Shown: positions 46,812 through 47,031 of the stretch, one piece after another
How the letters are laid out: each line of letters starts with the position of its first letter
Position numbering within the stretch: position 1 is the stretch's first letter
DNA from: a virus
Virus record (IMG/VR): IMGVR_UViG_3300027896_000032
Location: 1 to 64,000 of that record
DNA: 64,000 bases
Reading direction: 5' to 3' (one strand)
The notes under the pieces: model-generated
Told to the model about the DNA's origin: nothing
Databases searched by the model: none
The model's input: the letters and a program-made list of their open reading frames with translations, nothing else
Position numbers and translations under genes: made by a program

Positions 46812-47031
46812 GTGTTGTAGAACTCCAACACTTGTGTTGTAGATCTCCAACACCGACATGAAAATGATTCATCTGTTTTTATACTAGATCTCCTAACATA
46901 ATACATTACGTTTTTTACTAGATCTCTTATTCAAATAATAAGTAATGTATTACGTAAAAGAACTTCGCCCGCGGGAGTCTTTATTATTAAATATGGAGAA
47001 CTACAACACTTTCGATGGAGAACTACAACAC
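46812..47031. repeat. Iteron-like repeat array, candidate origin or operator
   Basis: Motif GTGTTGTAG[AT][AT]CTCC occurs four times: 46812 and 46834 rightward, and as its reverse complement at 46995 and 47017. Both pairs are spaced exactly 22 bases. The first two are completed to 20-bp palindromes (GTGTTG..CAACAC). Degenerate copies (TAGATCTCC) lie at 46885 and 46919. Around 47077 and 47148 a half-site TTCAATCGTGTTG repeats. The array lies between leftward and rightward gene blocks, as replication origins and control regions often do. Role inferred. Confidence 0.75.
46899..46952. repeat. AT-rich inverted repeat at the centre of the array
   Basis: TAATACATTAC (46899-46909) and GTAATGTATTA (46942-46952) are perfect 11-bp inverted arms around an AT-rich spacer. 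Centred near 46925, close to the midpoint of the two iteron pairs. Confidence 0.85.

Follow-up and report, generated by a model that had tools for sequence, protein, structure and literature searches.

In phage lambda, the iterons of the replication origin lie on one side of an AT-rich region. They form an array of inverted repeats for the dimeric initiator O, accompanied by an AT-rich unwinding region, and are located inside gene O itself (PMC5043065). The origins of PICIs and SaPIs instead have two sets of short iterons flanking an AT-rich putative melting site, and they are found directly downstream of the gene for a Rep (primase-)helicase, the C-terminal domain of which binds the iterons (PMC6092414; PMC7581432); in SaPIs, the iterons bound by the Rep helicases follow immediately after the genes that encode these proteins (PMC7581432). 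In addition, an origin has been suggested in print for the divergent intergenic region of Firecracker and Corndogvirus, mycobacteriophages of Cluster O; Cresawn and colleagues named this region as one of two plausible origins (PMC4351075).

The array of repeats described here resembles the PICI/SaPI origins in having an iteron set on either side of an AT-rich stretch that may melt and, by analogy, the lambda origin in combining an AT-rich region with an inverted-repeat array that would suit a dimeric initiator. It differs from the former, in which the rep helicase gene is adjacent, by having no gene within ~600 bp and no helicase or primase neighbor, and from the latter, in which the iterons are part of gene O, by its non-coding location in a phage in which no O homologue was found. 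No Rep protein with a helicase and a C-terminal DNA-binding domain was recognised in the record by Pfam or PHROGs, although a diverged one may be present. Because the adjacent Rep is missing, the array falls outside the PICI/SaPI membership and is placed as a variant of the two-iteron-set origins, which it may resemble in its working. We consider it rather likely that the array is an iteron-type replication origin, and we favour this reading over that of a divergent operator.

The phage genome and the repeat array

The window, i.e. the whole stretch of DNA analysed, comprises bases 1-64,000 of the 68,135-bp IMG/VR record IMGVR_UViG_3300027896_000032, which is that of an uncultured tailed phage, as identified by its terminase, portal and capsid genes. 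Because the same 60-bp tandem repeat, which encodes 20-residue repeats, is present at both record ends (window 4-241; L007 19651-19998), the genome probably closes as a circle, the assembly having been broken at this repeat. Genes are leftward between 46.2 kb and position 1 and, across the presumed point of closure, onward from the other end of the record to ~60 kb; the rightward block occupies 12 kb (48.0-59.9 kb). The array sits at the single divergent gene junction of the genome, in keeping with the original prediction that it marks the point at which leftward and rightward transcription part. Elsewhere in the window, three adjacent proteins of 513-553 aa (33965-38684) likely represent a tandem gene duplication, a segment of near-identical sequence (DYVGEAACGVTTDVPPEQIVGAPDAKTAITDTAESSY or similar) being common to two of them, and a 1035-aa protein (53897-57004) has an N-terminal DNA methyltransferase-like part and an SNF2-like helicase.

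Four exact copies of GTGTTGTAGWWCTCC form two head-to-tail pairs of opposite orientation with an equal spacing of 22 bp (Table 1), just as had been predicted, and the 11-bp inverted arms between them are perfect, as claimed. The expectation that two copies extend to 20-bp palindromes was borne out only in part: both extend, and both palindromes are imperfect, with one mismatched pair in GTGTTGTAGATCTCCAACAC and two in GTGTTGTAGAACTCCAACAC. The right-hand copies, s5 and s6, match only 16-17 of the 20 consensus positions. No exact copy of GTGTTGTAGWWCTCC was found elsewhere in the 68,135-bp record, and a search of the whole record with up to two mismatches (<=2) returned nothing further except the palindromic back-reads of s1 and s2. 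The partial sites s3 and s4 are additions to the four copies first reported. The heptamer TAGATCT occurs three times in 64 kb (46840, 46885, 46919), all of them inside one 80-bp span of the array, a clustering matched by none of 300 shuffles, and 8 of the 23 window copies of GTGTTG/CAACAC fall in 46812-47159. Among 1000 dinucleotide shuffles of this region (1.25 kb), none contained a 9-mer in four copies inside 250 bp; the array is real, and chance is a very poor explanation for it.

Table 1. Sites, arms, flanking promoters and other features of the array region, in window coordinates
Feature	Position	Strand	Remarks
Non-coding region, only divergent gene junction	46184..47967	.	~1.8 kb; codon log-odds gene calling
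Sigma-70 promoter, leftward	45741..45769	-	near-consensus TTGACA-17-TATACT; ~1.0 kb from array
Site s1, GTGTTGTAGAACTCCAACAC	46812..46831	+	imperfect 20-bp palindrome; exact 15-mer 46812-46826
Site s2, GTGTTGTAGATCTCCAACAC	46834..46853	+	imperfect 20-bp palindrome, 22 bp from s1; exact 15-mer 46834-46848
AT-rich core, candidate unwinding element	46854..46993	.	71% AT, up to 80% over 60 bp
Partial site s3, TAGATCTCC	46885..46893	+	contains TAGATCT
Inner inverted arm TAATACATTAC	46899..46909	+	11 bp, perfect
Partial site s4, TAGATCTC	46919..46926	+	near dyad symmetry centre; contains TAGATCT
Inner inverted arm GTAATGTATTA	46942..46952	-	11 bp, perfect; reverse complement of 46899-46909
Site s5, GTGTTGTAGTTCTCC	46995..47009	-	exact 15-mer copy
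Site s6, GTGTTGTAGTTCTCC	47017..47031	-	exact 15-mer copy, 22 bp from s5
Extra half-site-like repeat TTCAATCGTGTTG, copy 1	47076..47088	+
Extra half-site-like repeat TTCAATCGTGTTG, copy 2	47147..47159	+
Sigma-70 promoter, rightward	47872..47900	+	near-consensus TTGACA-17-TATAGT; ~0.84 kb from array

Folding of the complete segment gives a single large dyad (z = -5.4), with two sets of arms nested around nearly one centre, the outer at 46811-46849/46994-47032 (79% complementary) and the inner at 46896-46914/46937-46955 (84% complementary). Symmetry of this kind might act in RNA, with the repeats serving as tandem hairpins of a structured element or attenuator in divergent leader transcripts, and it is true that s1 and s2 can form hairpins with 6-bp stems and that the motif would read in the same direction in both putative transcripts. 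Nevertheless, these stems are short and the array region yielded no Rfam match at gathering score, making a role in RNA highly improbable. On the DNA, the six site centres fit a period of 11.1 bp (R = 0.98; P ~0.0008 when any period from 10 to 11.2 is allowed), whereas a 10.5-bp period brings the four strong sites into phase (R = 0.94) and leaves the two partial sites out of phase.

Exact palindrome scans returned matches at chance level only. Because the 60 matches of the 20-bp palindrome (16 fixed bases) in 257 Gb of prokaryote genomes are about what chance would give, this sequence is not a widespread host operator. BLAST searches of the array region found no match among plasmids and only weak ones (E ~0.01) among phages.

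Promoters, base composition and a possible operator role

The array lies mid-way in the largest non-coding stretch of the phage, and a codon-usage model trained on the phage's long genes found no credible gene between 46,184 and 47,967. The record contains just four sigma-70 matches of 11/12, two of which bracket the array and face outward. An alternative to an origin is a divergent operator, on the palindromes of which dimers of a phage repressor would bind cooperatively and repress left- and rightward promoters in the AT-rich core that drive long purine-rich leaders. The symmetry of the sites, their 22-bp spacing and the divergent junction would all suit such a role, as would a weak promoter-like match (46858-46885; 9/12) that overlaps s3, and the phage does encode an XRE-type regulator (3942-4187) and a possible MerR-like HTH protein (59545-59949). 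However, an operator is expected to overlap its promoters, whereas both near-consensus promoters are ~1 kb away; being 0.8-1.0 kb off and directed outward, they leave the array badly placed as their operator. Furthermore, promoter-like matches inside the region are near the number expected from shuffles (4 vs 2.0), and the nearest gene starts are more than 600 bp from the outer sites. On balance, we regard the operator as an unlikely reading.

The leaders, which are strongly purine-rich, are found on the outgoing strands at both sides of the array (46640-46810; 47440-47560) and share AAGGGAGTTGAGSGCG. That they arose by ancient inverted duplication was considered, and the match between them proved not to be significant, 8 of 200 shuffles being equally good. 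The structure predicted for a small leftward protein (45282-45569) was too poor for use (pLDDT 63).

With respect to base composition, the array core ranks with the window's highest 100-bp stretches for AT content, below those at 4.2 kb and 57.8 kb. Both GC and AT skew switch sign at the array. The GC-skew check proposed along with the original prediction nevertheless lent no support to a bidirectional origin, and skew was rejected as origin evidence: at four-fold degenerate sites, GC skew tracks the coding strand and not a bidirectional fork from 47 kb, with values of 0.21 and 0.26 in the blocks that such forks would meet head-on and 0.17 and 0.10 in those that would be co-directional. An intergenic stretch at 4.2 kb, up to 81% AT and beside the XRE-type regulator (3942-4300 for the two together), carries a TTATTCACA box, and the sole + strand TTATNCACA box of the window is at 4208; this stretch is a competing candidate origin, or else the promoter of the regulator. 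At the array there is no DnaA-box cluster and no TTATNCACA nearby, so that it lacks the mark of a DnaA-dependent oriC.

Related arrays in other phages

Scans with 8-mer peptides of four window proteins, from which very near records were possibly left out, found no close relatives of the phage. Its AAA ATPase (phrog_8638) and the downstream gene (50018-52598) form a two-gene module that is found at ~25-40% identity in ~22 unrelated phage contigs. Alignment of the ATPase gathered 99 relatives, the best ~40% identical, of which 80 were kept, and little beyond the ATPase and its downstream partner is common to these phages and that of the window. In 50 records of phages sharing the ATPase, a search for two TGTTGTA words within 20 bp revealed a forward pair followed 181-189 bp on by an inverted pair in the window record and two Corndogvirus records only. 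In Firecracker, this paired element is the 500-bp divergent intergenic region with its 39-nt AT-rich element. The Corndogvirus and window loci have in common inward-facing TGTTGTA pairs at a near-equal distance (181 vs 189 bp), an AT-rich core and divergent operons, and both phages encode a phrog_8638-type AAA ATPase, the only gene detectably common to them. They differ in pair spacing, which is 9-10 bp in Corndogvirus vs 22 bp in the window, in the GTTAGAG direct repeats beside the Corndogvirus AT core, which are absent from the sequence of window 46800-47045, and in the polymerase/primase that Corndogvirus encodes ~3 kb from its element. Because the 7-mer TGTTGTA was chosen after both arrays had been viewed, the match is suggestive; chance sharing across the inspected arrays would be ~1-4% by our own rough estimate, which is not the result of a tool. 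The AAA ATPase was dropped as a partner of the array, since most ATPase-bearing phages have no such array in the stretches searched.

Arrays of this general design, counted in all collected loci as a 7-mer pair followed by an inverted pair within 260 bp, were found at 16 loci in 3.7 Mb, roughly half of which appear to be coding or low-complexity; shuffled DNA (2.6 Mb) yielded none. Among the matches listed in a scan with the TGTTGTA word, many were chance or coding occurrences, and several were intergenic arrays. Five arrays, in unrelated phage contigs of IMG/VR, lie within 0.5 kb of primase-helicase genes. Eleven GTTGTAG copies are located ~140 bp beyond a primase gene, on its 3′ side (L350), and ten GTTGTA copies, with an 83% AT core, begin directly after a Toprim/DUF3987 primase-helicase (L382). 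The same layout with another core abuts a VapE-type gene (L124), precedes a DUF3854/DUF5906 gene by ~450 bp, here with no clear AT-rich core (L131), and follows the C-terminus of a polymerase/primase that belongs to the PHROG family of Firecracker gp20 (L170). These five resemble the window array in being intergenic and built of paired inverted short iterons, with the GTTGTA core shared by L350 and L382, and differ from it in the proximity of the primase-helicase genes.

Other arrays have no recognised replication gene alongside: two of the same class (L008, L098) and two with the window's core (L299, L349), which are beside terminase small-subunit genes. Symmetric arrays of dimer sites also serve terminases, ParB/ParR systems and resolvases. 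A site for packaging, partition or site-specific recombination is another reading of the window array, one that the terminase neighbors of L299 and L349 would fit. In the window, on the other hand, the terminase large-subunit gene is 13 kb from the array, and family scans of the record, the tallies of which in part covered the best 25 families, revealed no integrase, resolvase or ParA/ParB; we consider a function of this kind improbable.

A possible mechanism of initiation and its implications

As the original prediction had it, no initiator gene is apparent: Pfam and PHROGs, with tallies partly of the best 25 families, recognised no Rep, O-like, RepA-like or primase-helicase gene in the record; the binding protein may, as also suggested there, be new. 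Neither was a replicative polymerase recognised, the only related finds being a PolX-like enzyme, RuvC, SbcCD and the SNF2-like helicase-methyltransferase fusion. The PolX-like protein (60366-60938) is short; it has the thumb of DNA polymerase beta, and its match to the palm is weak. A 299-aa protein (64,309-65,208), for which no database relative was found, resembles, by eye only, a winged-helix replication protein and is on that ground a candidate initiator.

In the origin model, we infer that initiator binding, melting and the start of replication take place at the array. An initiator encoded or recruited by the phage would bind as dimers at s1/s2 and s5/s6, the pairs that face inward, on a single face of the helix, and more weakly at s3 and s4. 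The two bound clusters might then bend the DNA or pair across the AT-rich core, which would melt and allow a helicase and replisome to load. This replisome is probably that of the host, because the phage has no recognised replicative polymerase, primase or helicase.

The original prediction of an origin or operator can now be narrowed toward an origin, to which promoter distance, the Corndogvirus layout and the arrays by primase-helicase genes point, GC skew being the part that gave no help. The layout, AT-rich core, helical phase and non-coding setting of the array, and its recurrence in other phages, likewise argue for an origin. Against it stand the missing Rep-like gene, the skew, the rival site at 4.2 kb, the arrays without replication neighbors and the lack of a fixed association with the AAA ATPase. 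More tentatively, and as a possibility that we would not rate highly, this may be a two-iteron-set origin that has parted from any primase-helicase, at which an unrecognised type of initiator recruits the host replisome and in which GTTGTA(G) is a recurrent iteron core common to phages that are otherwise unrelated.

Replication origins have been mapped for few phages, and the candidate described here has no recognisable initiator. In its signature, a single short word is present as two pairs that face each other across an AT-rich core within non-coding DNA. Recurring as it does by primase-helicase genes in a handful of cases, this signature is cheap to search for and could make it easier to find origins in uncultured phages and to trace the initiators that act there.
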